The notes below the pieces were generated by a model. The model made no database searches. It saw nothing but the letters and a program-made list of their open reading frames with translations, and was not told where the DNA came from. The translations under genes were made by a program, and so were the position numbers. Shown in pieces: positions 7,966-38,522 of a DNA stretch of 42,441 nucleotides. The DNA lies in the NCBI GenBank assembly GCA_022509065.1, contig JAFLTY010000021.1, positions 1-42,441 of the forward strand. Direction: 5' to 3'. Positions within the stretch are counted from its first letter, which is position 1, and each line of letters starts with the position of its first letter. This DNA is from Muribaculaceae bacterium. GTDB taxonomy: Bacteria; Bacteroidota; Bacteroidia; Bacteroidales; Muribaculaceae.

Positions 7966-8129
7966 TGAAACAGCGCTCAAATTAGCAAAAAATTAGCAAC
8001 TTAACTTCCTATTGATGAAAATTTGTAACATATCACAAACGATTAGAGTTAGGAGCTTGTATAGCAAATTGGCGAGAGTTAGTGAGATTTCGGGTAATTG
8101 AAGAGGATTTAACAAAACATCCCCACACT

Positions 8130-10301: not shown

Positions 10302-10313
10302 CCCTATGATATC

Positions 10314-10347
10314 AGAGCCGGTTGGCATTTGTTGTCCAACCGGCTCT
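10314..10347 (+). terminator. Strong hairpin after glutamine synthetase gene
   Basis: A perfect 12-bp stem, AGAGCCGGTTGG (10314-10325) with CCAACCGGCTCT (10336-10347), has a 10-nt loop and begins 12 bp after the stop codon. The tail is TAATTAATTA rather than a clean T run; a T7 run follows at 10373-10379. Confidence 0.8.
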
Positions 10348-10403
10348 AATTAATTAGTGCGTAAAGGGTTACTTTTTTTATGAAATTTTAATGGCAAGAA
10401 TGC

Positions 10404-10434
10404 TTGGTCGCCTAAAAAAATATCATTACCTTTG
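10404..10434 (+). promoter_or_regulatory. Promoter of the nucleotide-biosynthesis operon leader
   Basis: TTG at 10404-10406, a spacer of exactly 20 bp, and TACCTTTG at 10427-10434 give a full Bacteroidota consensus promoter. Transcription should start near 10440. It is the only consensus promoter I see between the glutamine synthetase terminator and pyrC, about 305 bp before the pyrC ATG. Confidence 0.75.
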
Positions 10435-10455
10435 TAGTGAATTAAAGACGATGCA

Positions 10456-10611
10456 ATGAATTCGCGCCAAAGTCAACAAGACCCGGCGCCTAACAGTCAA
10501 AAAAACCAAATTTCAAAAGAATACATGAAACGTAAGTTGCTGATAGAATGTGAGAACAAAGTTTTACAAACAACTTGCGTCATGTTTTACGGTTCGTATG
10601 TCAAGAAATAA
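10456..10611 (+). CDS. 51-codon ORF, candidate leader peptide of the pyr operon
   Basis: It starts about 15 nt after the predicted transcription start and encodes 51 residues, from MNSRQSQQDPAPNSQ to VMFYGSYVKK. It has no signal peptide, no membrane helix and no recognised domain. The stop codon (10609-10611) overlaps the first two bases of an intrinsic terminator stem, and a hairpin plus UUUU lies within its last third. By position this resembles the 44-residue PyrL leader peptide of enteric pyrBI, whose translation controls the attenuator; sequence similarity to PyrL is not evident. It could instead be an independent small protein, or the transcript could be a roughly 200-nt small RNA with a chance ORF. 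Confidence 0.5.
   Translation: MNSRQSQQDPAPNSQKNQISKEYMKRKLLIECENKVLQTTCVMFYGSYVKK
10524..10588 (+). promoter_or_regulatory. Pause-like hairpin followed by UUUU in the pyr leader
   Basis: The arms CATG (10524-10527) plus ACGTAAGTTG (10530-10539) pair with CAACTTGCGT (10571-10580) plus CATG (10581-10584). That gives 14 pairs with one G-U and a two-A bulge. The loop has 31 nt. TTTT follows directly at 10585-10588, 21 nt before the terminator stem. A hairpin followed by U residues is the form of a UTP-sensitive RNA polymerase pause; this role is inferred. Confidence 0.5.
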
Positions 10612-10638
10612 TTCCGCAGTCATGTGGAATTTTTTTTT
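10610..10638 (+). terminator. Intrinsic terminator / candidate attenuator before pyrC
   Basis: AATTCCGCA (10610-10618) pairs with TGTGGAATT (10623-10631) in a 9-bp stem with one G-U pair, a GTCA loop and an unbroken T run to 10638. The stem begins at the stop codon of the leader ORF. A ribosome sitting at that stop would cover the ascending arm. Termination here would end a transcript of about 198 nt and separate the promoter from the operon. Confidence 0.75.
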
Positions 10639-10746
10639 ACATATATAATAGCGCGCGTCACGCGCACGAACAATAATCAATAGGCAGTAACATCGCCAGG
10701 TAGTCACCAATCAAAAACGACAGACAAGGTAGAAACAAAAGTCAGA

Positions 10747-11886
10747 ATGTCAAACCAACCCAACATAGTCCGCTTCCCCGCCTTTGTGGATTTGCATGTG
10801 CATCTACGCGAACCGGGCTACGGATATAAAGAGACAATACTGACCGGCACCCAAGCCGCCGCGGCAGGGGGCTACTCGGATGTTTTCGCGATGCCTAACG
10901 TCAACCCCGTGCCCGACACTGTCGAGCATCTGCAGATACAGAAAGACATTATCTCGAGCAGCGCAGTCATCAACGTACATCCGTACTGCAGTATCACCAT
11001 GGGACAGAAAGGGCGTGGCGAGTTGGTAGCTTTCGATAAACTGGCGCCATTGACTTCCGGATTTTCGGACGATGGAAAAGGCATACAATCGGAGAGCCTT
11101 ATGCGCGAAGCGATGACACGTTGCCACGCGGCAGGTTCGATGATTGTGGCGCATTGCGAAGTTGAAAGCCTTCTTGACGGAGGGTATATCCACGCAGGCA
11201 AATACGCGGCAGAACACAACCACAAAGGTATATGTTCGGCCAGTGAATATAAAGAAGTCGAAAGAGACATACAATTGACAGAACAGACGGGCTGTCCTCT
11301 TCATATATGCCATGTTTCGACAAAAGAAAGCGTGGCACTCATCCGTGCCGCAAAGACAAAAGGACTGCCTGTGACATGCGAAACCGCACCACATTACCTA
11401 TTGCTCAACGACCTGATGCTGGAGGAGAGCGGCGATTGGAAGATGAATCCGCCACTTCGGTCGGAAGAAGACCAACAGGCACTTATCGAAGGTATCATTG
11501 ACGGCACTATAGACTGTGTTGCCACCGACCATGCGCCCCACTCCTCCGAAGAGAAATCAAGAGGGTTGCGAGACAGCGCCTTCGGTATTGTAGGTTTGGA
11601 GACGGCCTTCCCATTGCTGTACACCTATCTTGTTTGCCGCGGCGTGATTACCCTTGACCGATTGGTAGAACTTATGTCCCGTCGCCCCAGCCAGATCATG
11701 AACCTCGCTGACGATGACAGCTCATATACACTATTCGATCTGGACGAAGAGTATGAAATAGACCCGTCGAAGTTCAAGTCCAAAGGACATTCGACACCAT
11801 TTAAGGGCTGGAAAGTAAAGGGTCGGTGTTTAAAAACAGTTTGTAACGGAAAAGAAGTGTACAACTATGCGACAACTGACCTTTAA
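10747..11886 (+). CDS. pyrC: Dihydroorotase
   Basis: The enzyme closes carbamoyl-aspartate to dihydroorotate, step 3 of UMP synthesis. The product has 379 residues. Metal and active-site residues of the class I amidohydrolase fold are present: His17 and His19 in DLHVHLREPG, Asp108/109 in FSDDGKG, His136 in AHCE, His189 in CHVSTKE and Asp261 in ATDHAPH, plus NPPLR. Only 12 residues precede the metal motif, whereas relatives have about 45-50, so the N-terminal part of the beta-sandwich is missing; no in-frame start lies upstream. The sequence style (REPGYGYKETILTG, EEKSRGL, GIVGLETAFPLL) recalls clostridial PyrC more than the Bacteroides type. It is the first gene of the operon and overlaps pyrK by 20 bp. 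The spacer 10639-10746 holds only a small GCGCG/CGCGC palindrome (10653-10665). Confidence 0.93.
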   Translation: MSNQPNIVRFPAFVDLHVHLREPGYGYKETILTGTQAAAAGGYSDVFAMPNVNPVPDTVEHLQIQKDIISSSAVINVHPYCSITMGQKGRGELVAFDKLAPLTSGFSDDGKGIQSESLMREAMTRCHAAGSMIVAHCEVESLLDGGYIHAGKYAAEHNHKGICSASEYKEVERDIQLTEQTGCPLHICHVSTKESVALIRAAKTKGLPVTCETAPHYLLLNDLMLEESGDWKMNPPLRSEEDQQALIEGIIDGTIDCVATDHAPHSSEEKSRGLRDSAFGIVGLETAFPLLYTYLVCRGVITLDRLVELMSRRPSQIMNLADDDSSYTLFDLDEEYEIDPSKFKSKGHSTPFKGWKVKGRCLKTVCNGKEVYNYATTDL

Positions 11887-12628
11887 AATAACGGCCAACG
11901 AAGCCCTGACACCGCTTATCAACAGCATGTGGCTTGAAGGGGTTGACGAAGAGGTTCGGAAGACGGTAAAGAGCGTCGTTCCCGGACAATTCATCAACGC
12001 GGCCATTGAAGGATGTTACCTGCGGCGTCCGGTGTCAGTGTGTGATGTACAAAACGACAAGATACGCATAGTATATAAGGTTGTAGGCAAAGGTACCGCG
12101 CTTATGCGTGAGATGCACCCCGATACAAGCCTTGACATACTTGTGCCGTTGGGTAACGGGTTCGATATAAGCCGGTCGGGAAGACGACCGCTGCTGATAG
12201 GCGGCGGCGTAGGGGTACCACCCTTACTTTTTCTGGCCAGAAAACTAAAAGAATCTGGGGTAACGCCCGACGTAGTATTAGGGTTCAATAGCGGAAACGA
12301 AATCATCCTTGCAGAAGAATTCCGCTCACTCGGGTGCGACATACAGATAGCTACCTTAGACGGCAGCACGGGACAAAAAGGGTTTGTCACCGACACCCGA
12401 GCAGTCAAGGACAGCCAATCGACCAACAGTTTTTATTACGCATGCGGGCCATTGCCCATGCTACGGGCTATCCAAGGGCAGTTGGGCATCGACGGGCAAC
12501 TGAGCGTGGAAGAAAGGATGGGTTGCGGTTTCGGCATTTGTATGGGCTGTACCTGCCATACCAAATCGGGCGCCCGACAGGTTTGCACACACGGCCCGGT
12601 GTTTCAAAAAGACGATATAATATTATAG
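11867..12628 (+). CDS. pyrK: Dihydroorotate dehydrogenase B, electron-transfer subunit
   Basis: This is the FAD and [2Fe-2S] subunit that passes electrons from dihydroorotate, via PyrD, to NAD+. The product has 253 residues. The N-terminal half is the ferredoxin-reductase-like FAD domain with RRPVSVC, then a nucleotide-binding segment with GGGVGVPPL, and the iron-sulphur ligands Cys220, Cys225, Cys228 and Cys240 near the C-terminus (CGFGICMGC, then QVC). The start lies inside the end of pyrC, suggesting translational coupling, and pyrD follows after 16 bp. The pairing with pyrD identifies the enzyme as the heterotetrameric NAD-linked class 1B type. Confidence 0.95.
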   Translation: MRQLTFKITANEALTPLINSMWLEGVDEEVRKTVKSVVPGQFINAAIEGCYLRRPVSVCDVQNDKIRIVYKVVGKGTALMREMHPDTSLDILVPLGNGFDISRSGRRPLLIGGGVGVPPLLFLARKLKESGVTPDVVLGFNSGNEIILAEEFRSLGCDIQIATLDGSTGQKGFVTDTRAVKDSQSTNSFYYACGPLPMLRAIQGQLGIDGQLSVEERMGCGFGICMGCTCHTKSGARQVCTHGPVFQKDDIIL

Positions 12629-12644
12629 AAAGGACAACATACCC

Positions 12645-13562
12645 ATGGCCAACCGACTCGAAATAACCTTAGGTAACATTACACTGAAGAATCCGATAAT
12701 ACCGGCATCGGGCACTTTCGGGTTTGGCCTTGAGATGGCGTCATTGTACGACATCGATTGTCTGGGAGCGATAAGCATAAAAGGCACCACCGTGGAGAGC
12801 CGCTACGGCAACCCTACTCCACGCATTGCGGAATGCAGCAGCGGGATGCTGAATTCGGTAGGACTTCAAAATCCCGGAGTTGAAGCGGTAACACGCGACA
12901 TACTGCCACGACTGCGCTCCGTCTACCACCAACCCATCATAGCCAATATCAGCGGATTCTCGATAGCCGAGTATGAGCACCTCGCCAAGACGCTGAGTAA
13001 GGAAGCTCAAGTCGGTATTCTGGAAGTGAACATATCGTGTCCCAACGTCCACGACGGCGGAATGGCTTTCGGAACGAGCGCCGAGACAGCCGCGGAGGTA
13101 ACGAAAGCTGTTAAAGCGGTGTCAAGCAAACCCGTATTCATCAAGCTTTCCCCCAACGTCACCGACATAGTCAGTATCGCCAAAGCCTGCGAAGAGGCCG
13201 GAGCCGACGGGCTGTGCCTTATCAATACCGTTTTGGGAATGCGCATCGACATCCGGCGGCGGGAGCCTGTCCTGGCCAACAAGTACGGCGGGATGTCGGG
13301 ACCGAGTATTTTTCCGTTGGCCTTAAGAATGGTCAACCAGGTAGCACAATCGTGCTCGATACCGGTGATAGGTTGCGGAGGTGTGGGTACGGCGGAGGAC
13401 GTGATAGAGATGATGATGGCCGGTGCGAGCGCCGTTGAGATCGGCGCAGCCAATCTTGTCAATCCGTATGTATGCAAAGACATTATAGACCAACTGCCCG
13501 ACAAACTCACAGAATTGGGCATTGAGAACATAAAGGATATAATAAACATAGTAAACCAATGA
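12645..13562 (+). CDS. pyrD: Dihydroorotate dehydrogenase B, catalytic subunit (class 1B)
   Basis: The FMN enzyme oxidises dihydroorotate to orotate, step 4 of UMP synthesis. The product has 305 residues, normal for class 1B. The catalytic base Cys132 lies in NISCPN, followed by AFGTSAE; FIKLSPNVTDI and the phosphate-binding GCGGVGTAEDV are also present. It has no membrane anchor, as expected for the cytosolic class. The stop codon overlaps the pyrF start by 4 bp (ATGA). Confidence 0.96.
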   Translation: MANRLEITLGNITLKNPIIPASGTFGFGLEMASLYDIDCLGAISIKGTTVESRYGNPTPRIAECSSGMLNSVGLQNPGVEAVTRDILPRLRSVYHQPIIANISGFSIAEYEHLAKTLSKEAQVGILEVNISCPNVHDGGMAFGTSAETAAEVTKAVKAVSSKPVFIKLSPNVTDIVSIAKACEEAGADGLCLINTVLGMRIDIRRREPVLANKYGGMSGPSIFPLALRMVNQVAQSCSIPVIGCGGVGTAEDVIEMMMAGASAVEIGAANLVNPYVCKDIIDQLPDKLTELGIENIKDIINIVNQ

Positions 13563-14275
13563 GCAAGTCCGACCATAATAACGTCATAATAGCCTGTGAT
13601 TTTGACAGCGCCGAAGCGTTGTATCGTTTTTTGCCACAATTCGGCGAATCGCGTCCTTATCTCAAAATAGGCATGGAACTGTATTATGCCGCAGGGCCTG
13701 CCATAGTGAGAGAACTTAAAAGCAAAGGTTTCCCGATATTTCTTGACCTGAAGCTGCACGACATACCCAATACGGTAAAGAAAGCCATGTCGGTATTATC
13801 GAAACTTGACGTCGACATGTGTAACCTTCACGCATCGGGGGGCATCGCCATGATGAAAGCCGCCGTCGAAGGGCTGACACGCAAAGACGGCAGTCGCCCC
13901 ATACTGCTTGCCGTCACACAACTCACCTCGACGAGCCGTGAGACAATGAACAACGAACTGCTTATTGACGGACCGGTGGAACGCGTGGTAGCCCAATACG
14001 CGAAGAACGCTCGGGAAGCGGGACTTGACGGGGTGGTATGTTCGCCTCTCGAAGCCGGCATAGTGAAAAAAGAATGCGGAGACGACTTTCTGACGGTCAC
14101 TCCCGGAGTGCGTTTCTCCAATTCGGACACGCAAGATCAGAAGCGAGTGACCACACCGGCGCTTGCCCGCGAACTTGGGTCGGATTATATAGTGGTGGGC
14201 AGACCGATAACCGGGGCTCAGAATCCCTACGAAGCGTATATGCGGTGTTTGGCAGAATTTAACGGCATAGAATAG
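13559..14275 (+). CDS. pyrF: Orotidine 5'-phosphate decarboxylase
   Basis: The enzyme converts OMP to UMP, the last step of the pathway. The product has 238 residues, the length of the short Bacillus/E. coli-type subfamily. The catalytic D-x-K-x-x-D array is Asp63, Lys65 and Asp68 in FLDLKLHDIPNTV, and the phosphate-binding end has VTPGVR and VVGRPIT. Bacteroides species typically carry the other, longer subfamily, so this gene is one of several in the operon of Firmicutes type. It is coupled to pyrD by a 4-bp overlap; pyrE follows after 23 bp. Confidence 0.96.
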   Translation: MSKSDHNNVIIACDFDSAEALYRFLPQFGESRPYLKIGMELYYAAGPAIVRELKSKGFPIFLDLKLHDIPNTVKKAMSVLSKLDVDMCNLHASGGIAMMKAAVEGLTRKDGSRPILLAVTQLTSTSRETMNNELLIDGPVERVVAQYAKNAREAGLDGVVCSPLEAGIVKKECGDDFLTVTPGVRFSNSDTQDQKRVTTPALARELGSDYIVVGRPITGAQNPYEAYMRCLAEFNGIE

Positions 14276-14298
14276 ACATTTGATATAAGACACAACCA

Positions 14299-14946
14299 AT
14301 GGAAGCAAAAACAGACAAACGACATATAGCCGAAGACCTGTTATCGATAGGCGCGGTATTTCTTCGACCTGACGAACCCTTCACGTGGGCAAGCGGCATA
14401 AAAAGCCCCATCTACTGCGACAACCGACTGACACTCTCCGATGTAGCTATACGCGAAGACGTAGAGGAAGGGCTTGCGCGAATCGTCCGTGAGCATTATC
14501 CCGAAGCCGAAGTGCTGATGGGAACCTCGACAGCGGGAATAGCTCATGCCGCCATAACGGCGACCAAACTGAGCCTTCCGATGGGTTATGTGCGGTCGTC
14601 GGCAAAAGACCACGGTCGCACGAACCGCATAGAAGGGAAGTTGACCACGGGGCAGAAAACAGTTGTTATAGAAGACCTTATATCGACCGGAGGCAGTTGT
14701 ATAGAAGTGGTAGAGGCACTCCGGGAAGCCGGCGCCGATGTTTTGGGTATAGCGAGCATCTTCACATACAACATGGAGAAAGGCCTGGAGGCGCTTAGAC
14801 GCAACGAGGTGAAGAACGTAAGCCTTTGCGACCTGGACGCCTTGCTCGATGTGGCTGTAGACAAGAAATATATCAAACCGACAGACAAAAAGAAACTGTT
14901 AGCGTTCCGCAGCAATCCGTCAGATGACAGCTGGCGCAACGCCTAA
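14299..14946 (+). CDS. pyrE: Orotate phosphoribosyltransferase
   Basis: It transfers phosphoribose from PRPP to orotate to make OMP, step 5. The product has 215 residues. FTWASGIKSPIYCDNR is the orotate-side family motif, and the PRPP loop is VVIEDLISTGGS at 122-133. GTSTAGI and RSSAKDHGR are the flexible-loop and substrate segments. It lies between pyrF and pyrB with gaps of 23 and 45 bp. Confidence 0.96.
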   Translation: MEAKTDKRHIAEDLLSIGAVFLRPDEPFTWASGIKSPIYCDNRLTLSDVAIREDVEEGLARIVREHYPEAEVLMGTSTAGIAHAAITATKLSLPMGYVRSSAKDHGRTNRIEGKLTTGQKTVVIEDLISTGGSCIEVVEALREAGADVLGIASIFTYNMEKGLEALRRNEVKNVSLCDLDALLDVAVDKKYIKPTDKKKLLAFRSNPSDDSWRNA

Positions 14947-14991
14947 GGATAAGCAAAAGAGAGTTATTCACAATAACAAACAAGTGAAAAA

Positions 14992-16053
14992 ATGCGACAT
15001 TTAATAGACTCGACCGATTTAAGCGTTAAGGAAACTCAGGAGATTTTAAATCTTGCTCTCGATATTATCGAAAACCGCACAATGTACAGTCATGTATGCG
15101 CCGGGAAGAAACTGGCGACACTCTTCTATGAACCGAGCACGCGTACGAGACTGAGTTTCACAGCAGCCATGATGGAACTTGGAGGAAACGTCCTCGGGTT
15201 TTCGGATGCGAGCACCTCGTCGGTGAGCAAAGGAGAAACCGTAGCCGACACGGTTCGTGTAGTATCGGCGTTCGCTGACATCATCGCCATGCGTCACTAT
15301 AAAGAGGGAGGCCCGTTTGTCGCATCGCAATATTCACGCATTCCGGTAATAAACGCCGGCGACGGTGGCAACGCACATCCCACCCAGACCCTCACCGACC
15401 TTCTCAGCATACGCCGTGAGCTGGGACATCTTGACAATCTCACCATAGGACTGTGCGGCGACTTGAAATACGGGCGGACGGTGCATTCGCTCATTAAGGC
15501 TATGAACCGTTATGAAGGTGTAAAGTTTGTTCTTATAGCTCCCGCAGAACTACGGCTGCCCGACCACATAAAGAATCTTGCACCGACGAAATGCGTTGAA
15601 ACAGCGACGCTTGAGGAAGCGTTGCCCACGCTTGACGTCCTCTATATGACCCGCGTTCAACAAGAACGTTTCGCCAACAAAGACGACTATGAACGTCTTA
15701 AAGACAGTTTCGTTCTGGACGCGCGCAAGATGCAGCTTGCAAAAGAAAAAATGATTGTGCTGCATCCTCTACCTCGAGTCAAGGAAATAAGTCCCGATGT
15801 GGACAGTGACTCCCGTGCGGCCTACTTCCGTCAGGTAGAGAACGGCAAATTTGTGCGTATGGCACTGATTTACACATTGCTGCATAAGACAACCGAAACC
15901 CGCGAGCACTCAGAGTCCCTCAGTGTCACCGAGGAACCATGCACCAACAGACGGTGCATCACCGCCACCGAGCCCGTGGAAAGACTATCGTACGAAGACC
16001 ACGACGGGAAAAGACGGTGCGCCTACTGTAACCACGTTCTGGCCAACAGCTAA
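14992..16053 (+). CDS. pyrB: Aspartate carbamoyltransferase with a fused PyrI-type zinc tail
   Basis: The catalytic chain joins carbamoyl phosphate and aspartate, step 2 of UMP synthesis. Residues 1 to about 297 are a complete catalytic chain: FYEPSTRTRLSF (STRTR at 49-53), the SVSKGET loop, HPTQTLTDL and LHPLPRV. After a polar linker the C-terminus (about 314-353) has Cys317, Cys322, Cys343 and Cys346 in CTNRRCITATEPV ... RCAYCNHVLAN. This matches the four-cysteine zinc domain at the end of the regulatory chain PyrI (in E. coli CPNSNCISHAEPV ... CKYC ... VLAN). The nucleotide-binding allosteric domain of PyrI is absent, and no pyrI gene is in the window. In enteric ATCase the zinc domain contacts the catalytic chain, so the tail may dock in cis or between trimers; that is inference. 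Confidence 0.94.
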   Translation: MRHLIDSTDLSVKETQEILNLALDIIENRTMYSHVCAGKKLATLFYEPSTRTRLSFTAAMMELGGNVLGFSDASTSSVSKGETVADTVRVVSAFADIIAMRHYKEGGPFVASQYSRIPVINAGDGGNAHPTQTLTDLLSIRRELGHLDNLTIGLCGDLKYGRTVHSLIKAMNRYEGVKFVLIAPAELRLPDHIKNLAPTKCVETATLEEALPTLDVLYMTRVQQERFANKDDYERLKDSFVLDARKMQLAKEKMIVLHPLPRVKEISPDVDSDSRAAYFRQVENGKFVRMALIYTLLHKTTETREHSESLSVTEEPCTNRRCITATEPVERLSYEDHDGKRRCAYCNHVLANS

Positions 16054-16077: not shown

Positions 16078-17571
<1,494 letters not shown>

Positions 17572-17586
17572 CACGTTATCGTTTTC

Positions 17587-19113
17587 ATGGAAAAAATTTA
17601 TATAGTAGATTTCGGATCACAATATACTCAGTTGATAGCACGACGCCTGAGAGAACTTAATGTGTATTGCGAAATCCACCCGTTCAATAAAGTGCCGGAG
17701 CTTGATGAGGAAGTGAAAGGCATAATACTGTCCGGCTCGCCGGCCTCGGTAAGAGACGCTAATGCCCCACAAATAGATTTGGCGCCTGTTTTCGGCAAAT
17801 TACCGATATTAGGCATCTGTTACGGCGCCCAGTACCTCGCGCAAACATACGGCGGAGAGGTTTTGCCATCGCCCAGCCGCGAATATGGACGTGCCATATT
17901 GATTATCAAAGATAAAGAAGATGTCCTGTTCCAAAACGTTCGAACGGAGAGCCAGGTATGGATGTCGCACGGAGACACGATACAGAAACTGCCGAACGAG
18001 ACACGTGTGCTGGCCTCGACATCGGATGTACGTAATGCTGCCTTTCGTTTCGACAACGCGCCGGTTTGGGGCATACAGTTCCACCCCGAAGTTTATCACA
18101 CGGAACAAGGCATGCTGATACTGCAAAATTTCGTGGTGTCGGTATGCGGATGTAAACAAGACTGGACTCCGGATAACTTTGTTGAACAGACAGTCGCCCA
18201 ACTGAAAAAAACCATTGGTGACGACAATGTCATTTTAGGTTTATCGGGAGGGGTGGACTCGTCGGTAGCTGCCATTTTGCTGAAGAAAGCTATCGGCGAC
18301 CGTTTGCATTGTATTTTTGTGGACAGCGGATTGCTGCGATATAATGAATTTGAAGAGGTTTTGGCCTCGTATAAAAACTTAGGGTTGAACGTCATTGGAG
18401 TAGACGCATCCGAACGTTTCTATAATGACCTGAAAGGAGTGACCGAACCCGAGGAAAAACGTAAAATCATAGGCCGCGATTTCGTCGAAACTTTCAATGA
18501 AGCCGCCGCAAAGATACCCAACGCCAGGTGGCTGGCACAAGGGACCATTTATCCGGACGTTGTAGAATCGGCCTCGGTAAGCGGTCCGGCTGCCAAGATA
18601 AAATCGCACCACAATGTTGGTGGTCTTCCTGAAAAGATGCATCTTAAAGTGGTTGAACCCTTGAGGTTGCTCTTTAAAGACGAGGTGCGCCGTGTGGGCA
18701 AGTCATTGGGCATGCCACAATCGCTTATAGGACGTCATCCTTTCCCGGGACCGGGACTGGCAATAAGGATAATAGGTGATATAACACCCGAAAAAGTGCA
18801 TATCCTTCAGCAGGTAGACAAGATATTTATCGACAACTTGAAACGCGCCGACCTTTATGACAAGGTATGGCAAGCAGGCGCCATCTTGCTTCCGGTACAA
18901 AGTGTCGGGGTTATGGGTGATGAGCGCACATACGAAAGATGTGTAGCTTTACGAGCCGTTTCGTCGGTGGACGGAATGACCGCCGACTGGGTGCATCTGC
19001 CTTACGATTTTCTTGCTCAGACATCAAACGAAATCATCAACAAGGTTAAAGGTGTCAACCGTGTCGTTTATGACATATCGTCAAAACCACCGGCAACAAT
19101 CGAGTGGGAATAA
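17587..19113 (+). CDS. guaA: GMP synthase (glutamine-hydrolysing)
   Basis: The enzyme aminates XMP to GMP with glutamine and ATP. The product has 508 residues. The class I amidotransferase domain (about 1-190) has nucleophile Cys78 in GICYGAQ and His166/Glu168 in FHPEVYH. The ATP pyrophosphatase domain has the P-loop GLSGGVDSS. The C-terminal dimerisation domain ends in [15 protein letters not shown], the standard finish of GuaA. Both domains are intact in one chain. Confidence 0.97.
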
Positions 19114-19175
19114 AAATTCCGCTTATCGAATCACCATCAACCAATAGAAATTAGCCAAACAAAACCAATTGAAAT

Positions 19176-19643
19176 ATGAAAGTCGGTATTATAATGGGTT
19201 CGACATCCGATTGGGAAGTAATGCAACCCGCAGTGACAACGCTTGAGTCCTTCGGCATAGAATATGAGAAAAAGGTTATCAGTGCCCACCGTGCACCTCA
19301 TGCTCTTTTTGAATGGGCATCGACTGCAAAGGAACGCGGACTAAGCGTCATAATAGCTGGCGCGGGAGGCGCAGCCCATCTGCCCGGTGTAATCGCCGGA
19401 CTCACCATACTGCCGGTTATAGGTGTCCCCGTAAAGAGCAAAATGCTTGACGGACTTGACTCTTTGCTCTCGATTGTTCAGATGCCTTCTGGCATCCCGG
19501 TTGCGACAGTCGCTATCAACGGCAGTAAGAATGCAGCACTGCTGGCAACCAGTATCTTGGCGCTGAAATATCCCGAGTTGGAGGAAAAACTGGTTGCTTT
19601 CCGTAAAAGCCAAACAGAAGCTGTCCTGGCAGCACAAATCTAA
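19176..19643 (+). CDS. purE: N5-carboxyaminoimidazole ribonucleotide mutase (PurE)
   Basis: It converts N5-CAIR to CAIR in purine synthesis. The product has 155 residues with [10 protein letters not shown], the active-site SAHRAPH and [11 protein letters not shown]. It looks like the small class I form, which normally needs PurK to make N5-CAIR, yet no purK is in the window. purK could lie elsewhere, or this enzyme could use AIR and CO2 directly as class II enzymes do. The spacer before it (19114-19175) holds no promoter that I can see. Confidence 0.94.
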
Positions 19644-19656
19644 GAAACGCACTTTT

Positions 19657-22600
19657 ATGCCTCAACAACACATGCAAAAAAATACAGCCTATAGAGTTTT
19701 CGTTGAGAAAAAACCGGGGTTTCAAGTCGAGGCTCGGATGTTGCTTGACGAACTGAACCAAAATCTCCAACTCGACATCAAGGATCTGCACTTGGTTAAT
19801 GTGTACGACCTTTTCGGATTTTCAGAGCCGTTGCTTAAGCAATCACTTTTCAAAGTGTTTGCCGAGGAACCGACCGACACGTTGTCAACCTCGTACAATC
19901 TTGACGGTAAGAGATATATTGCTATAGAATACTTGCCGGGGCAGTTTGACCAGCGAGCTTCTTCGGCTATCGATTGCGTGCATCTTATTGATCCGACCGC
20001 AGAGATAAACATCCGTAGTGGCAAATTGCTTGTGTTTGACGACAATGTAACCGATGAGGATATTAATAGGATAAAACACTATGTGATAAATGCCGTTGAA
20101 TCACGCGAGAAAGATATGAATCAATTGCGAGATTCGGAAATCGCCTCACAAAAGGTGGTTGCGAAACTTGACGGTTTCTGCGACATGGATCATAATGAGC
20201 GAGTCAATTTTATCAAGGATTGGGGTCTGGCCATGAATGAGGATGACCTTATGGAGGTTATCAAATATTTTCGTAAGGAAAAACGCAATCCTACTGAGAC
20301 CGAACTGAAAATTCTTGACACATATTGGAGCGATCACTGTCGCCACACTACCTTTACAACCAAGCTTGAACATATCGACATTGAGCCGTCGTTTATCAAA
20401 CCCGATATAGAGGACACGCTATGTCGCTTTTATTCAATCAGATCGACTGGCAAAGACCTTATAAGTCATGGGTCGGAAGCTAAAGAAGAATGTGCTTCAG
20501 AACCGTTGACATTGATGGAGCTTGCTACTGTAGGAGCGCGCTATCTACGTTCAATCGGCAAATTAGACGACCTTGAAAAAAGCGAGGAAAACAACGCTTG
20601 CAGCATCATCATTGATGTAGATGTTGATGGGAAAACGGAGCAATGGTTGCTTCAATTTAAAAACGAAACTCACAACCATCCCACCGAAATAGAACCTTTT
20701 GGAGGAGCTTCCACATGTCTCGGGGGCGCCATACGAGACCCACTGTCAGGACGCGCTTATGTATATCAGGCGATGCGCGTCACCGGTGCCGGTGATATAT
20801 GGCAACCCGTATCGGATACTATTCCGGGCAAATTGCCTCAACAAGTCATTTCGAAAAAAGCCGCGGCCGGTTATTCATCTTACGGTAACCAAATAGGCTT
20901 GGCCACTACTCATGTCCGCGAAATCTATCACCCCGGTTTCGTCGCTAAACGACTCGAAGTAGGTGCTGTAGTAGGAGCAGTCAAGGCTGCCGATGTAGTC
21001 AGAGAGAGACCGCAACCCGGCGATATAGTCCTTATGTTGGGGGGCAAGACAGGACGTGACGGAATAGGAGGCGCCACGGGCTCGTCGAAACAACACACTC
21101 AGTCTTCACTCGAAAGTTGCGGTAGTGAGGTGCAGAAAGGTAACGCTCCGGTGGAACGCGCGCTTCAACACTTGTTTCGCCGTCCCGAAGTAACTCGACT
21201 CATTAAGAAAAGTAATGATTTCGGAGCCGGCGGCGTATGTGTAGCCATAGGAGAATTGGCCGACGGCCTGGACATCTGGTTAGACCGTGTCCCTGTCAAA
21301 TACACAGGTCTTAATCCAACCGAGTTGGCTATCAGCGAATCCCAGGAACGTATGGCTGTTGTCATTCCTGCCGAATACAAGGAACAGTTTAGCAAGTATT
21401 GCCGGGAAGAGAACATCGAAGTCACCCATGTGGCTAATGTCACAGGCAACAACCGCATGCGTCTGTATTATAACAGCGAACTTGTAGCAGACATCAGCCG
21501 AGAGTTTATAAACAGTGCCGGAGCACCGCACTATGCCAACGCCACAGTAGGGTCTGTAACAGACCGTAATCCTTTTGCACAATCTCCCGACGGTAAAAAC
21601 CTCGAAGATAAAGTCCGGTCTGTGCTAAGTCTTCCGAATGTCACCTCGCAAAAAGGGCTCATTGAGATGTTCGATTCGACAATAGGCCGTTCTACCGTCC
21701 TGATGCCTTTCGGAGGTAAGCATCAACTCACCGAGACGCAAGTTTCAGTTCAAAAAATTCCATCCAAAGGCTTTACCGAGACATCCAGCGTCATGTCTTT
21801 CGGGTATAATCCTTTCATTTCTGAATGGAGTCCCTATCATGGCGCCGCATACGCAGTGGTTGAAGCCTGTGCTAAAGCGGTGGCTGCCGGTGCCGATTAT
21901 AGTAAAATGCGCTTCTCGTATCAGGAATACTTTGAACGCATGACTTCCGCATTGTCTTTTGGCAAGCCCCTCAGCGCTCTTCTTGGGGCGTTAAAGATGC
22001 AACTTGATATGGAGTTGCCCTCTATTGGCGGTAAAGATTCGATGAGCGGCACCTTTGAAGACATCAATGTTCCGCCAACTCTCATCGCTTTTGGCGTGAC
22101 TACTGAAAATGCTAACAACATAATTTCCCCTGAGTTTAAAAAGTCCGGGCACTATCTGTACATTCTAAAGCACAAACCCTTAGACAATTACATGCCCGAC
22201 GTTGAACGCTTGAAGAAAAACTGGGATTGGTTGCATGAAAACATCAAGTCCGGTGTTGTATGTTCGGCGTATGCTCTGACCACGGGAGGTTTGGTTGAGG
22301 CTCTGGCAAAAAGTGCCTTTGGCAACATGGTAGGCGCCGAAATCAACTATCCTGAAGACAATCTGTTCGATTACTCTTACGGGTCCATTCTGATTTCCAC
22401 CGAAAGAGAACTCGATTTTGATGGTTTATTGCCCATAGGCAAAACGATAGATAACACCTCATTGATAATAAACGGGCATGAAATGCCGTTATCAACTTTG
22501 TTAGACATCAACACCGCGCCTTTCAACCAGATATATCCGTCGACGGCAAATCACCAGTTCCAAGGTTCTTTAAATCCTATATCCGACGAGAACGATGCCA

Positions 22601-23457
22601 ACATTTCGGCTTCGTTCAAAAGGTCTAACTTAAAACCACATGTCCATACCGACCATCCGGTTGTATTTATTCCGGTATTTCCGGGTACTAACTGCGATTA
22701 TGACAGCGCCAAGGCTTTTGAACGCGCTGGAGCTTCGGTCAGGTCAATGATTTTCCGCAACCAAACAGCAGACGATGTAGCGGAAAGCATAAAAGAGATG
22801 ACCGATGCTATTGACAACTGTCATATACTCATGATAGCCGGCGGTTTCTCGGTAGGTGACGAACCGGACGGCTCCGGCAAATTTATCGCCAGCGTTCTGA
22901 CCAACAAACAAGTCGCAGATTCAATAAACCGACTTATTGAACGTGGCGGTTTGATATTGGGCATTTGTAACGGTTTTCAGGCATTGATAAAGTGCGGTCT
23001 TTTGCCTTTCGGACATCTTGGCGAAGTCAACGGCAATTCACCCACCCTGTTCCGTAACGATATAAATCGCCATATCTCACAAATCGTTACCACGCGAGTG
23101 GCTCGATGTGATTCTCCCTGGCTCAGTGCGTTCCACGATGGCGAGTTGTTCAGCATAGCGGTTAGCCATGGTGAAGGCAAATTTGTTGTTTCGGAAGAAA
23201 TAGCACGGGAACTATTCAAAAACCATCAGGTCGCTTTCCAATATGCCGATCCTTTGACGGGAGAACCCACAATGGTTTCGCCTTATAATCCTAATGGCTC
23301 TTTCTACGCAATAGAAGGGATTGTCAGCCCCAACGGCCAGATTCTTGGCAAGATGGGACATTCCGAACGTTTCGAGGAAGGCCTATTCAAGAACATTTCC
23401 GGCAACTGTAAGCAATCGATTTTTGAAAACGCTGTCAATTACTTTAAAAATAATTAA
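19657..23457 (+). CDS. purL: Phosphoribosylformylglycinamidine synthase, single-chain form
   Basis: The large FGAM synthase converts FGAR to FGAM with glutamine and ATP. With the start at 19657 it has 1266 residues and carries a PurS-like N-terminal part, two AIR-synthase-like halves and a C-terminal glutaminase, so purS and purQ are not needed. HNHPTEIEPFGGAST lies near 339-353. The amidotransferase nucleophile is Cys1104 in GICNGFQAL, with His1171 in SHGEGKF. An open frame extends back to 19594 inside purE, but ATG 19657, 14 bp after the purE stop, fits better. The sequence resembles the Clostridium/Streptococcus long form rather than the proteobacterial one. Confidence 0.95.
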   Translation: MPQQHMQKNTAYRVFVEKKPGFQVEARMLLDELNQNLQLDIKDLHLVNVYDLFGFSEPLLKQSLFKVFAEEPTDTLSTSYNLDGKRYIAIEYLPGQFDQRASSAIDCVHLIDPTAEINIRSGKLLVFDDNVTDEDINRIKHYVINAVESREKDMNQLRDSEIASQKVVAKLDGFCDMDHNERVNFIKDWGLAMNEDDLMEVIKYFRKEKRNPTETELKILDTYWSDHCRHTTFTTKLEHIDIEPSFIKPDIEDTLCRFYSIRSTGKDLISHGSEAKEECASEPLTLMELATVGARYLRSIGKLDDLEKSEENNACSIIIDVDVDGKTEQWLLQFKNETHNHPTEIEPFGGASTCLGGAIRDPLSGRAYVYQAMRVTGAGDIWQPVSDTIPGKLPQQVISKKAAAGYSSYGNQIGLATTHVREIYHPGFVAKRLEVGAVVGAVKAADVVRERPQPGDIVLMLGGKTGRDGIGGATGSSKQHTQSSLESCGSEVQKGNAPVERALQHLFRRPEVTRLIKKSNDFGAGGVCVAIGELADGLDIWLDRVPVKYTGLNPTELAISESQERMAVVIPAEYKEQFSKYCREENIEVTHVANVTGNNRMRLYYNSELVADISREFINSAGAPHYANATVGSVTDRNPFAQSPDGKNLEDKVRSVLSLPNVTSQKGLIEMFDSTIGRSTVLMPFGGKHQLTETQVSVQKIPSKGFTETSSVMSFGYNPFISEWSPYHGAAYAVVEACAKAVAAGADYSKMRFSYQEYFERMTSALSFGKPLSALLGALKMQLDMELPSIGGKDSMSGTFEDINVPPTLIAFGVTTENANNIISPEFKKSGHYLYILKHKPLDNYMPDVERLKKNWDWLHENIKSGVVCSAYALTTGGLVEALAKSAFGNMVGAEINYPEDNLFDYSYGSILISTERELDFDGLLPIGKTIDNTSLIINGHEMPLSTLLDINTAPFNQIYPSTANHQFQGSLNPISDENDANISASFKRSNLKPHVHTDHPVVFIPVFPGTNCDYDSAKAFERAGASVRSMIFRNQTADDVAESIKEMTDAIDNCHILMIAGGFSVGDEPDGSGKFIASVLTNKQVADSINRLIERGGLILGICNGFQALIKCGLLPFGHLGEVNGNSPTLFRNDINRHISQIVTTRVARCDSPWLSAFHDGELFSIAVSHGEGKFVVSEEIARELFKNHQVAFQYADPLTGEPTMVSPYNPNGSFYAIEGIVSPNGQILGKMGHSERFEEGLFKNISGNCKQSIFENAVNYFKNN

Positions 23458-23469
23458 ACCTATCCAACC

Positions 23470-24501
23470 ATGGCTCAATCATATCAGCAAGCAGGAGTAA
23501 ACCTTGAGGCGGGTTACGAAGTAGTCAGCCGCATAAAACAACATGTAGCGTCGACCATGCGTCCCGGCACAATGGGCAACATCGGTTCGTTTGGTGGCAT
23601 GTTCGACCTTAGTGCGCTTCATCTCAAAGAACCCGTTCTTGTTAGTGGCACCGACGGCGTAGGCACAAAACTTAAGATTGCTTTTGCGCTCGACAAACAC
23701 GACACCATAGGCATTGACGCGGTCGCCATGTGCGTCAACGATGTTCTTGCTCAGGGTGCCGAACCACTTTATTTTCTTGACTATATCGCTGTGGGACACA
23801 ATATTCCCTCAAAAATAGAAGCTATTGTCGCAGGGGTGGCCGAAGGCTGCAGACAGGCAGGCTGCGCCTTAGTTGGAGGTGAAACAGCCGAGATGCCCGG
23901 CATGTATCCAAACGGTGAGTATGATATCGCTGGCTTTACAACAGGTGCAGTGGAAAAATCCAAGATTATCGACGGCTCGAAAGTCAAGGTCGGGGATGTT
24001 TTAATCGGACTGAATTCGTCCGGCATACATTCCAACGGTTACAGTCTTGTCCGAAAAATAGTATCAGATAATCATCTTGACTTAAATAAAGCATATCCTG
24101 AGTTTGACGGACAGACTTTAGGCGAAGTATTACTGGCACCAACAAAAATCTACGTCCTTCCCGTCCTTGAGGTTCTGCGCCATGTCGATGTACACGGCAT
24201 TTGCCACATAACCGGAGGTGGTTTTGACGAAAATATACCGCGCGCTCTCAAACCCGGTATGGCCTTCTCGGTCATTGAAGGTTGGTGGACAGTTCCTCCT
24301 ATATTCAAAAAATTGGAGGAATGGGGTCACATTCCTCATCGCGAAATGTTTAACATCTTTAATATGGGAATCGGTATGATCTTAATCGTCGACAAAGCCG
24401 ATGCCACCAACGTTATAAGCATTCTGCAACAAAACGACCAGCAGGCTCAGGTAATTGGAACCGTAGTGGAAGGCGAGAATGTAATCAAATCAATGAAGTA
24501 A
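23470..24501 (+). CDS. purM: Phosphoribosylformylglycinamidine cyclo-ligase (AIR synthetase)
   Basis: The ATP-dependent enzyme closes FGAM to AIR. The product has 343 residues, the usual length. [29 protein letters not shown]-like sequence (here PLYFLDYIA), [11 protein letters not shown] and [13 protein letters not shown] are family motifs. It lies 12 bp behind purL, its upstream enzyme in the pathway. The sequence is close in style to clostridial PurM. Confidence 0.97.
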
Positions 24502-24524
24502 AAATCTGAAGACATAAATATAAA

Positions 24525-26060
24525 ATGGCAAAAAGAGCATTATTCAGTGTTAGTGACAAGGCAGGGATAGTTGAGTTCGCCTCCGGTTTACAAAAACTGG
24601 GCTGGGAAATTATCGCTACGGGAGGAACCAAGTCCCTGCTGTCCAAATCCGGCATACCGGTGATTGACATAAGTGAAATAACCGGTTTTCCTGAAATTTG
24701 TGACGGCCGAGTAAAGACTCTGCACCCAAAAGTACACGGCGCACTCTTGGGTGTACGGGAAAATCCCGAACACATGAAAGAGTTATCTGAAAACGGAATA
24801 GGTTTCATCGACCTTGTTTGCGTCAATCTTTATCCTTTCAAAGAAACCATCGCCAAGCCGGATGTCACATTGGATGAAGCTATTGAAAAGATTGACATTG
24901 GCGGTCCGTCAATGTTGCGAAGTGCAGCCAAGAATTACACGAGTGTCACAGTGGTTTGCGACCCGCGCGATTATGCCGGCGTCTTGCGTCAGATTGAGGA
25001 AAACGGGAACACATCCCTCATGACACGATTGGAATTATCAGCCAAAGCATATACGCACACCGCTCAATACGATATGTGTATCGCAACGTATATGCGTAAA
25101 CAGGCCGACCTTCCTGAAAAACTGTTTCTTGAGTTTGACATCAAGCAACCATTGCGCTATGGTGAAAACCCACATCAATCGGCAAATTTCTATGCGTCAC
25201 CCGATGTACAACCTTTTTCATTAGCGGACGCAATACAGATTCAAGGCAAAGAGTTGTCATACAACAATATTCAGGATGCTAATGCGGCTCTTTCGATTGT
25301 TCGCGATTTTTCCGACCCGTTTTGTGTCGCTCTCAAACACATGAACCCTTGTGGAGCTGCACAGGCTGGCTCCATCGAACAAGCATGGCAAAAAGCTTTT
25401 GAAGCCGATCCCGTAAGCATTTATGGAGGCATAGTGGCCGTCAACCGTCCTCTTACAAAAGAAATAGCCCAAGCCATGAAACCTATCTTTTTGGAGATAG
25501 TCCTGGCGCCCGATTATACCCCGGAAGCCCTCGAAATTCTTGTTACCAAAAAGAATCTACGAGTCCTCAAAGTCAACATGACACAATCGGACAAACCTGT
25601 CAATCAATATGTCGGGGTGACAGGCGGCATGTTAGTTCAGCATCAGGACACTCAGACCGAGATACTGACTCTCGAACAGGTAGTAACTGAAATGAAACCT
25701 ACGCCCGAAATGCTTGCCGATTTGCAATTTGGCTGGAACATAGTAAAACATGTCAAGTCAAACGCAATTGTCGTCGTTCAGGACTTACAGACGCGAGGTG
25801 TTGGAGCAGGGCAGATGAACAGAGTAGGTTCTGCTCAGATAGCATTAGAACAAGCTGCCGCTTCGGGAAACTGTGACAGACTTGTACTTGCGTCTGATGG
25901 TTTCCTACCTTTCGATGACACCGTTGAGCTTGCCGCGCGATATGGAGTCAAAGCTATTGTGCAACCGGGCGGCAGCATCAGAGATGCCGAGTGCATAAGC
26001 AAAGCTAATGAAAAAAATATTATCATGCTCCTGACCGGAGTAAGACACTTCAAACATTAA
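24525..26060 (+). CDS. purH: Bifunctional AICAR formyltransferase / IMP cyclohydrolase
   Basis: It performs the last two steps to IMP. The product has 511 residues. The N-terminal cyclohydrolase domain (MGS-like fold, ATGGTKSLL, GRVKTLHPKVHGALL, NLYPFKETI) is followed by the formyltransferase domain with RYGENPHQ and the catalytic Lys271-His272 in LKHMNPCG. It uses 10-formyl-tetrahydrofolate, which the FolD half of the next gene product can supply. Only one base separates its stop from the next ATG. The sequence follows the Bacillus-type PurH rather than the Bacteroides type. Confidence 0.97.
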   Translation: MAKRALFSVSDKAGIVEFASGLQKLGWEIIATGGTKSLLSKSGIPVIDISEITGFPEICDGRVKTLHPKVHGALLGVRENPEHMKELSENGIGFIDLVCVNLYPFKETIAKPDVTLDEAIEKIDIGGPSMLRSAAKNYTSVTVVCDPRDYAGVLRQIEENGNTSLMTRLELSAKAYTHTAQYDMCIATYMRKQADLPEKLFLEFDIKQPLRYGENPHQSANFYASPDVQPFSLADAIQIQGKELSYNNIQDANAALSIVRDFSDPFCVALKHMNPCGAAQAGSIEQAWQKAFEADPVSIYGGIVAVNRPLTKEIAQAMKPIFLEIVLAPDYTPEALEILVTKKNLRVLKVNMTQSDKPVNQYVGVTGGMLVQHQDTQTEILTLEQVVTEMKPTPEMLADLQFGWNIVKHVKSNAIVVVQDLQTRGVGAGQMNRVGSAQIALEQAAASGNCDRLVLASDGFLPFDDTVELAARYGVKAIVQPGGSIRDAECISKANEKNIIMLLTGVRHFKH

Positions 26061-26061
26061 T

Positions 26062-28170
26062 ATGAAAAAAGTTCTTGTAGTTGGTTCGGGAGGCAGATGC
26101 CATGCGATAGTGCATGCTTTGCGTCGGTCTCCTTCGGTAGGGAAGATATACTGTACAGGCGAAAACCCCGGCATTGGACAATATGCCGAACTTGTGCCCA
26201 TTAAAGATACGGATATTGTCGGTTTGCGCGATTGGGCGGCCGAAAATAATATAGACCTTACGGTGGTTGGTCCCGAGGTACCCTTGTCTTTAGGTATCGT
26301 TGACCTTTTCCGTGAATCAGGCCTTAAAATTTTTGGTCACACAAAAGCGGCCACGCGCATCGAGTCGAGCAAAGAGTTCGCCAAACAGATCATGAAATCA
26401 GCCAATGTCCCGACAGCTGATTACAAATCCTTCACCAACTATGACGACGCTTTACAATTTGTCCTTAGTCGTCCTTTCCCGGCGGTAATCAAATACGATG
26501 GGTTGGCTGCCGGAAAAGGTGTTGTGATTGCCCGCACACCCGAGGAAGCCGAGGCGGCTTTAAAGGATATGCTCGTAAACGAGACGTTTGGAGGCGATAA
26601 GGTTATCATAGAAGATTTTCTTTCCGGTCCGGAATTCTCTTTTATGTGCTTTGTGTCGGGTAAACACGTAACTCCGATGCCCGTGGCTCAAGATCACAAA
26701 CGAGCTTTTGACGGAGACAAAGGTCCTAATACCGGAGGTATGGGGGCTTACACGCAATTACCGTTCATCACCTCCGAAGATAAAGAATATGCCTTGAAGC
26801 ATATCTTGCAACCTGTGGCAGACACCATGGCCGATGCCGGATTCCCACTCTCCGGAGTGCTTTACGGGGGACTGATAAAGACTCCGAATGGCATCAAGGT
26901 TATTGAGTTCAACGCTCGTTTTGGCGACCCCGAAACGGAGGTTGTGCTTCCAATGCTTGACAGCGACATCTATACAATAATGGATGCGGTCGCTTCTCGC
27001 CATGCCATTCCGGAACCGACATGGAGCGACAAGGCTGTTTTCGGTGTGGTGTTAGCCTCAAATGGTTATCCGGGCAAGTACACAAAAGGTGCCGTAATTG
27101 AAGGTCTGAAAGATGTCGAAACGACAGTTTATCACATGGGTACAGCTATTAAGGACAATAGCGTGATTGCATCGGGAGGACGAGTACTAATGGTTGTGGC
27201 AGCCGAAAAAGATTTGCAGACTGCAAAACAAAAGGTGTACGACGAGATTAAAAAAATCAAATGCGACCAATTGTTCTACCGTAGCGACATCGGGCATTTT
27301 GCTTTCTCGTCTCAATCCATGACTAAAATTATTGATGGAAAAAAAATAGCAGACGAGATTAAAACAAATGTCAAAAACCAAATTGACGTGATTCGTCAAT
27401 CGGGTGCTCGCATTCCGGCTTTAGCAGTAATCGAAGTAGGCGACAATCCCGCATCGCGCGCTTATGTAAGGAATAAAATCAAAGCTTGCGAAGCGACCGG
27501 CATCATAAGCCATCATTTCAGCCTGCCGAATAGTGTATCCGAATCTGAGCTGCTTGATTTAATTAATAAGCTGAATCAGGATGACACCATAGACGGCATA
27601 TTGATTCAATTGCCGTTACCGATGGCCATTGACACCGACAAAGTGATCAACGCCATCCGTCATGACAAGGATGTCGATGGCTTCCATCCGCTAAATGTGG
27701 CGTCTCTTTGGAATGGCAACGCAACCCTTGTGCCATGCACCCCCGAGGGTATTATGTATGTACTGCGACGACTCGAAATTGAACTTGACGGAAAGACAGC
27801 TGTGGTTGTCGGAAGGAGCAATATCGTCGGCAAACCTATCGCCAAACTTTTGCTTGACTCAAACGCCACTGTAGTGATGGCTCATTCCCATACAGCTCAT
27901 CTTGAGGAAATCACCAGACTGGCCGATATACTGGTCGTGGCGGTAGGAAAAAAACATTTCATCGATTCCCGTAACATAAAGCCCGGCGCAGTTGTCATAG
28001 ATGTAGGCATTAACCGCGGTGAGGACGGAAAACTTTACGGAGATGTCAATTTTGACGATGTTTTACCCCTTGTCTCGGCTATTACCCCTGTACCGGGAGG
28101 CGTAGGTCCTCTCACTGTGGCCATGCTCATGCTTAACACACTTAAATGTTATAATCTTCACAAACAATAA
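26062..28170 (+). CDS. purD/folD: PurD-FolD fusion: GAR synthetase + methylene-THF dehydrogenase/cyclohydrolase
   Basis: One uninterrupted frame of 702 residues. Residues 1 to about 414 are PurD (glycinamide ribonucleotide synthetase, step 2 of purine synthesis): ATP-grasp motifs KYDGLAAGKGV, DHKRAFDGDKGPNTGGMG and EFNARFGDPE, ending YRSDIG. After a short HFAFSSQS linker, residues 420-702 are a full-length FolD: Tyr468 and Lys472 in AYVRNKIKAC, QLPLP, GRSNIVGKP and TPVPGGVGPLT. FolD makes 10-formyl-THF, the cofactor of PurH encoded just upstream. No stop separates the parts; ATG 420 (position 27319) could also serve as an internal start. In PurD the usual GSGGREHA reads GSGGRCHA. Both activities should be retained judging by motifs. 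Confidence 0.93.
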   Translation: MKKVLVVGSGGRCHAIVHALRRSPSVGKIYCTGENPGIGQYAELVPIKDTDIVGLRDWAAENNIDLTVVGPEVPLSLGIVDLFRESGLKIFGHTKAATRIESSKEFAKQIMKSANVPTADYKSFTNYDDALQFVLSRPFPAVIKYDGLAAGKGVVIARTPEEAEAALKDMLVNETFGGDKVIIEDFLSGPEFSFMCFVSGKHVTPMPVAQDHKRAFDGDKGPNTGGMGAYTQLPFITSEDKEYALKHILQPVADTMADAGFPLSGVLYGGLIKTPNGIKVIEFNARFGDPETEVVLPMLDSDIYTIMDAVASRHAIPEPTWSDKAVFGVVLASNGYPGKYTKGAVIEGLKDVETTVYHMGTAIKDNSVIASGGRVLMVVAAEKDLQTAKQKVYDEIKKIKCDQLFYRSDIGHFAFSSQSMTKIIDGKKIADEIKTNVKNQIDVIRQSGARIPALAVIEVGDNPASRAYVRNKIKACEATGIISHHFSLPNSVSESELLDLINKLNQDDTIDGILIQLPLPMAIDTDKVINAIRHDKDVDGFHPLNVASLWNGNATLVPCTPEGIMYVLRRLEIELDGKTAVVVGRSNIVGKPIAKLLLDSNATVVMAHSHTAHLEEITRLADILVVAVGKKHFIDSRNIKPGAVVIDVGINRGEDGKLYGDVNFDDVLPLVSAITPVPGGVGPLTVAMLMLNTLKCYNLHKQ

Positions 28171-28206
28171 TTTTTTATTTACGCAAAAACACGTAATTTG
28201 TTTAAA

Positions 28207-29391
28207 ATGACAAAAATAGGAACGCCCCTTACACCAAGCGCCACGCGAGCTTTACTTTGCGGCTCGGGCGAATTAGGGAAAGAAGTAGCTTTGGAACTTC
28301 AACGTTATGGTGTTGAGGTCATAGCTGTTGACCGTTATCCCAACGCGCCGGCAATGCAAGTCGCACATCGCTCGCATGTTATTAACATGCTAGACCCTGA
28401 GGCTTTAAGAGAAATTATTCTTAAGGAGCAACCTACTATCATTATCCCCGAAGTCGAGGCTATCGCAACGCCTGCCCTTTTACAACTCGAAAAAGAGGGC
28501 TTTACAGTCATACCGACAGCAAACGCGGCTTTTCTTACCATGAATCGCGAGGCTATCCGCCGTCTGGCTGCCGAGGAACTCTCCCTGCCTACAGCGCCCT
28601 ATCTTTTCGCTGACAATTACGATGAGTTTGTTGCCGCAGTAAATAAAATCGGCATACCCTGTGTCGTCAAACCAATAATGAGTTCCTCTGGACACGGTCA
28701 GTCGACCATCCGTTCGGCATCGGATATCGATGCTGCCTGGCAGTGTTCACAACAATCGGGACGAGCCGGCGCCGGTCGGGTCATCGTGGAAGGATTCGTG
28801 CCCTTCGATTATGAAATAACTTTGTTGACTGTGCGCCACTCCGGAGGCACAACATTCCTCAATCCTATCGGTCATCATCAAGTCAATGGAGACTATCAGG
28901 AATCATGGCAACCTCAGCCCATGTCATCAGTCTGCCTGGCGAAAGCGCAACATATAGCCAAAACTGTCACCGACGCTCTTGGCGGCTACGGAATCTTTGG
29001 AGTCGAAATGTTTATAAAAGGTGATGAAGTAATCTTCAGTGAAGTGTCTCCACGTCCTCATGACACAGGAATGGTTACCATGATATCGCAAGATTTGTCC
29101 GAGTTCTCGTTACACGCTCGCGCCGTGTTGGGATTACCAATTCCGGACGTATTTTTCCGCGGACCGTCGGCTTCAAAAGCCATCGTGGTGAACGGCGATA
29201 CAAACCAAGTAGTTTTCTCTAATCTCAAGGATGTTCTGGCGGAGGAAGGCGTGCAGATACGCTTGTTTGGCAAACCCGAGGTGAAGGGACATCGTCGCAT
29301 GGGAGTGCTCTTAGCGACAGCCGACACGGTGGAACATGCGTTGGAAAAAGTAGAAAGAGCTTATAATAAACTTCAAATAACCACTTTATAG
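28207..29391 (+). CDS. purT: Formate-dependent GAR transformylase
   Basis: The ATP-grasp enzyme formylates GAR to FGAR using formate and ATP instead of 10-formyl-THF (step 3). The product has 394 residues, matching the usual 392. It shows [45 protein letters not shown] and [13 protein letters not shown]. No purN is in the window. The start at ATG 28207 matches the family; an upstream TTG at 28198 is in frame but unnecessary. Confidence 0.95.
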
Positions 29392-29402
29392 AACACGTCA
29401 AA

Positions 29403-30698: not shown

Positions 30699-30812
30699 TT
30701 AATCAAATCATTAACCGGAGACTACATGTCAAGGAAAGTATTAAAGTCCGCAAATCCATAATTTCAATACCGATTTGATATTTAATCTCCGCTCAAAACA
30801 ATTAATATCTTT

Positions 30813-32078: not shown

Positions 32079-32124
32079 CCGATAAGCACGTCAAACACAG
32101 ACCGAATACGCTTTAACATTCAAA

Positions 32125-34032: not shown

Positions 34033-34071
34033 GCAATAAAAGCCAACCATAGAATCAACAATACACTTTCT

Positions 34072-35199: not shown

Positions 35200-35253
35200 C
35201 TTTATCCCTTTCATTTTTTACGCATTACGCTTCAACGGAACATATAACAATCT

Positions 35254-38490: not shown

Positions 38491-38522
38491 CTTGTTAACT
38501 AATTAATCTAACCACACATACA

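Follow-up and report, generated by a model that had tools for sequence, protein, structure and literature searches.

The locus studied here raises the question of what controls transcription into a long run of nucleotide synthesis genes in a member of the Bacteroidota, and whether a short translated leader could act as the switch. The window, by which we mean the whole 42,441-nt stretch of Muribaculaceae DNA that was analysed, carries the dihydroorotase gene pyrC as its first structural gene (10747..11886, + strand; TIGR00857, over its cut-off). The genes pyrK, pyrD, pyrF, pyrE, and pyrB (11867..16053, + strand) were assigned from profile matches, with pyrD, pyrF, pyrE, and pyrB over a cut-off and pyrK as a best match below its cut-off. 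Open reading frames (ORFs) on the same strand at 16099..39488 include guaB, identified by family search, and genes that we take, from reading the sequences, to be guaA, further purine genes, carA, carB, and purC. Together, 20 same-strand pyrimidine and purine synthesis genes occupy a single 29-kb run from 10747 to 39488, for which co-transcription is putative.

An initial annotation had described, ahead of pyrC, a promoter, a 51-codon ORF, a hairpin, and a terminator, and each of these was recovered at its position. The predicted promoter (10404..10434, + strand) was recognized by sequence, with TTG at 10404-10406 and TACCTTTG at 10427-10434. It contains the single + strand occurrence of TAnnTTTG between 10300 and pyrC, a motif that matches the Bacteroidota-type promoter consensus and is also given in the available part of PMC9723704. 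The leader ORF (10456..10611, + strand) has 51 codons, ends in TAA at 10609-10611, and had no Pfam match at E ≤ 1, and when the leader was shuffled 3000 times, an ORF placed likewise between the window's promoter and the stem arose in 40 cases. The intrinsic terminator, a putative attenuator (10610..10638, + strand), consists of nine pairs (10610-10618 with 10623-10631) and a T-run to 10638; the folding z-score of 10605-10640 was −4.17 and was equalled by one of 200 shuffles. As annotated, the stem begins at the ORF stop, since its first bases overlap the TAA, which ends 2 nt into the stem. The upstream hairpin, a possible pause element (10524..10588, + strand), has 14 outer pairs followed by UUUU and a predicted energy of −17.1 kcal/mol (z −2.76; equalled by 5 of 200 shuffles). 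The relatively U-rich stretch proposed as a candidate pause region (10577..10602, + strand) has T at 11 of 26 positions. The most T-rich 26 nt anywhere in the leader hold 12 T, a count that 248 of 1000 shuffles reach and that is therefore not significant, and near the stem T occupies 6 of 20 positions, below the fraction of 0.54-0.61 over the last 15 nt in the relatives described below.

Generic scans of 8000-14000 were also carried out. They gave six terminators vs. 6.9 expected in shuffles and eight promoters vs. 6.3, with no excess in either; the promoter scan looked for E. coli-type sites, and the window's promoter at 10404-10434 was absent from its list. The case therefore rests on the position of the elements and on the relatives. 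A phage search using the window region returned no matches. Further upstream, an inverted repeat (10311..10350, + strand) with 15-nt arms that are 93% complementary is probably the terminator of the preceding gene, and would separate that gene from the pyr promoter. The preceding gene is a glutamine synthetase by appearance, and glutamine synthetase models matched it only below their cut-offs.

The distribution of this pyrC type determined where relatives of the locus were sought. Among 49 genomes of the window's genus, 41 matched the window pyrC at E ≤ 0.001, but the 40 other than the window's own genome (G000) did so at ≤34% identity, leaving G000 as the sole carrier of its pyrC type in the genus; a second pyrC match was not found in G000. 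Across the order, 4 of 393 genomes, G000 included, matched at E ≤ 1e-90, and in family f113, 192 of 268 genomes matched at E ≤ 1e-60, all within two of 22 genera. Because the type is confined to G000 within its genus, relatives were taken from f113, and as the window's own leader had no close relative among the sequences found, its conservation was judged by layout in another family. A pyrC tree of 37 rows left the window row unplaced inside a mixed clade of Bacillota and Bacteroidota. The N-terminus of the window pyrC was shorter than in the f113 genes that were read. Gene order differed in five f113-type or Rikenellaceae loci (L006, L008, L013, L014, and L017), which have pyrC, carA, carB, pyrK, with pyrD next after pyrK in four of the five (names mostly by reading).

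In total, 159 regions upstream of pyrC were examined, including those of 147 of the 192 matching f113 genomes, and a terminator was found in 151. Removal of seven duplicate records, one clostridial region, and two identical ones left 141 rows, comprising 139 from f113, a Rikenellaceae metagenome-assembled genome (L017), and the window. All counts over relatives ignore shared descent. A terminator scoring at least 9 stood before pyrC in 136 of 145 f113 upstream regions vs. 0.3% of 725 shuffles. Six of the 147 f113 genomes lacked a usable terminator; two had too short an upstream region, and four (L216, L244, L246, and L278) had no terminator even at a score of 7. TAnnTTTG occurred 100-175 nt before the stem in 139 of 141 rows, the exceptions being the window (183 nt) and L279. 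A leader ORF ending between −12 and +16 nt from the stem was present in 130 of 139 loci (138 f113 and L017), with 10.1 expected. Among the nine exceptions and L279, the ORF ran through the terminator in seven (five with ATG, two with GTG starts); of the others, L163 begins with GTG, the ATG of L232 lies slightly further along, and L279 offers only TTG or a late ATG as a start. Under a looser ORF rule, devised after these exceptions had been seen and applied with the window included, 137 of 140 loci passed with ATG starts (15.3 expected) and all 140 with ATG or GTG (22.2 expected). Geometry agrees with the claim that the ascending arm would be covered by a ribosome standing at the stop codon; if a 13-nt reach is assumed, half of the arm or more would be covered in 124 of 130 relatives. 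In a separate observation, L018 carries a hairpin and T-run soon after a promoter-like site, ~190-260 nt upstream of the pyrC anchor; no leader ORF was seen there by eye, and the terminator script did not score the hairpin.

The presence of the same layout before the same pyrC type in f113 strongly supports a predicted leader-ORF attenuator. The reading we favor, with a probability of roughly 0.7, is a ribosome-controlled transcription attenuator in which UTP scarcity would lead the ribosome to occlude the terminator, so that the pyr operon is read. With plentiful UTP, RNA polymerase would run ahead of the ribosome, the hairpin would form, and transcription would end. With scarce UTP, the polymerase would slow at U-rich positions in the leader and the ribosome would catch up; on reaching the stop codon it would cover the ascending arm and the operon would be transcribed. 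The sequence of the leader peptide itself should be irrelevant to such a switch.

Leader evolution was investigated in 37 disjoint pairs of relatives. Substitution rates at the three codon positions were 0.089, 0.111, and 0.121, with 132 synonymous vs. 284 other changes; the near-even rates and these counts indicate a leader peptide that is little constrained. Four indels fell inside the ORF (~105 nt) vs. 12 between promoter and ATG (~20 nt). ORF indels had no bias toward multiples of three (two of four in the disjoint pairs; 18 of 62 when all 138 pairs, which are not independent, are counted, with single-base indels making up 40 of the 62), and this is a point against strict keeping of the frame. 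The last 12 codons were U-rich, at third positions most, with T at 51.4% of third positions vs. 29.6% earlier, and the phenylalanine codons TTT and TTC stood at 152:58 in this stretch vs. 48:80 earlier. Leader-wide structure was weak (mean MFE z −0.58 in 65 of the 130 leaders), and in the relatives the upstream hairpin gives no impression of being conserved. Compensatory changes in the terminator stem were set aside as proof, as the 31 distinct 25-nt stems had been chosen for complementarity; in these selected stems, double changes occurred at 9 of 10 stem pairs (0 to 4 when slid) and at 2 of 10 in a 13-stem subgroup.

A similar leader-ORF attenuator could respond to general translation or coupling, through growth state or other nucleotides, rather than to UTP. 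Its anatomy would be identical, and the weak U-tract of the window would suit it. The unremarkable U content of the window stands against nucleotide sensing. We nevertheless regard this as rather unlikely, as U enrichment in the relatives peaks at third codon positions toward the end of the leader, and two families have leader attenuator layouts ahead of pyr genes. Support for UTP sensing is indirect, coming from U-enriched leader ends, varied amino acids, and the lack of an antiterminator and of a PyrR match over the cut-off in 16 genomes, and these would fit a nucleotide sensor.

The PyrR search bears on a reading in which the RNA senses a protein or ligand, as a PyrR-type element or a novel riboswitch, and the ORF is incidental. 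Four clostridial loci (L002, L003, L005, and L007) do share a hairpin-like sequence before pyrC that resembles a PyrR site by eye. PyrR, however, was over the cut-off in 0 of 16 genomes, including G000 (95% complete), with weak sub-cut-off matches in 11; an Rfam search of the window at gathering scores, covering riboswitches and T-boxes, gave 0 matches; and the leader ORF is placed in the relatives far beyond chance. We consider such an element very improbable. Classical amino-acid attenuation, with control codons and an antiterminator, is even harder to credit. In the relatives, 13.5% of the last 12 codons encode phenylalanine, which would favor it, but the peptides vary, no shared codon run was seen in the peptide lists by eye, and no antiterminator was found, the ascending arm pairing with upstream RNA less than shuffles do (mean z −1.15, 65 leaders). 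The third-position U bias, the change of the prevailing phenylalanine codon from TTC to TTT, and the missing antiterminator point to a putative nucleotide-sensing rather than amino-acid-sensing leader. To our knowledge, pyr genes respond to no single amino acid, which also counts against amino-acid attenuation. Least credible is a simple terminator that ends a short transcript, pyrC being read from another start within 10640-10746, for although this 108-nt gap has room for a weak promoter, it contains no + strand TAnnTTTG, and the layout is kept across relatives.

Loci upstream of pyrB were also read, 33 in all (30 f41 and 3 f78). By script, 19 have a terminator shortly before pyrB and 14 lack one, and a leader ORF ended between −12 and +20 nt from the stem in 15 of the 18 loci with a promoter in range (2.9 expected). 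One of the loci in this comparison, L321, is from f78, and two others, L311 and L335, are nearly the same sequence. In five f41 loci (L332, L334, L337, L338, and L340), an attenuator-like layout was observed before pyrB with the leader stop inside the ascending arm. Among the best 30 pyrB loci from 198 genomes, about four had a promoter and terminator by eye (L307, L310, L311, and L313), and the rest did not. In the window's genus, 43 genomes had a pyrB match; 30 of their pyrB loci were retrieved, and none of the 29 readable ones, which lack the window-type operon, showed the promoter-leader-terminator layout before pyrB. Twenty-six had no terminator; in L369 and L374 the promoter lies after the terminator, with the ORF of the preceding gene reaching the stem in L369, and L384 had a weak stem and no ORF.

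It is a tentative and somewhat doubtful possibility that UTP-sensing ribosome-occlusion attenuators had more than one origin in Bacteroidota, one set lying ahead of pyrC (f113 and the window) and another ahead of pyrB (f41), with one governing the window's 20-gene run. If true, purine synthesis would be tied to UTP, and close transcription-translation coupling would be required in Bacteroidota. No leader peptide of a pyrimidine gene in Bacteroidota was found in the titles and abstract openings of open-licence literature, among the matches listed. Leader peptides in general were nonetheless already suspected in the phylum: the available part of PMC7366714 describes small ORFs in Bacteroides thetaiotaomicron that resemble attenuating leader peptides, and that of PMC9723704 gives strong indications that amino-acid operons in Flavobacterium are preceded by leader-peptide attenuators. 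Should the window's leader work as proposed, transcription-translation coupling in Bacteroidota would be directly testable.

Several known systems were compared with the locus. PyrR-dependent attenuators of Bacillota control pyr operons at a terminator; they need PyrR and its binding site, neither of which was found for the window. PyrR is named in the available part of PMC13328217. Attenuators of the trp/his type differ in that the ascending arm pairs with an antiterminator, a pairing not found in 65 relatives. The Pseudomonas aeruginosa carAB leader also encodes a leader peptide and may be subject to attenuation by pyrimidines (PMC4997734, in part), but concerns another gene in another phylum. 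In E. coli pyrBI (pyrL), the leader ORF crosses the terminator and ends just before pyrB, as the ORFs of the seven f113 loci cross theirs, whereas the window's ORF stops at the stem base. The window's promoter is Bacteroidota-type, unlike that of pyrBI, and its leader has no likeness by eye to the PyrL peptide. As the first structural gene is pyrC and not pyrB, the window locus is not classed as a member of enteric pyrBI. The E. coli pyrL pause was judged unlikely to depend on RNA structure in the available part of PMC9291695, so weak conservation of the hairpin is no strong objection. A U-rich tract is enriched in the relatives and not significant in the window, and the relatives have neither an antiterminator nor a control-codon run, as in PyrL-type leaders. 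In the window and its relatives, a leader ORF lies between a promoter and an intrinsic terminator before a pyr gene, and by geometry a ribosome finishing the ORF would overlap the terminator stem. E. coli pyrBI too has a promoter, leader ORF, and intrinsic terminator before a pyr gene, with a leader that is U-rich (K-12 sequence; PMC10135430 and PMC5021804, in part), and, according to the same sources, the ribosome there can block the hairpin, which is the occlusion logic proposed here.
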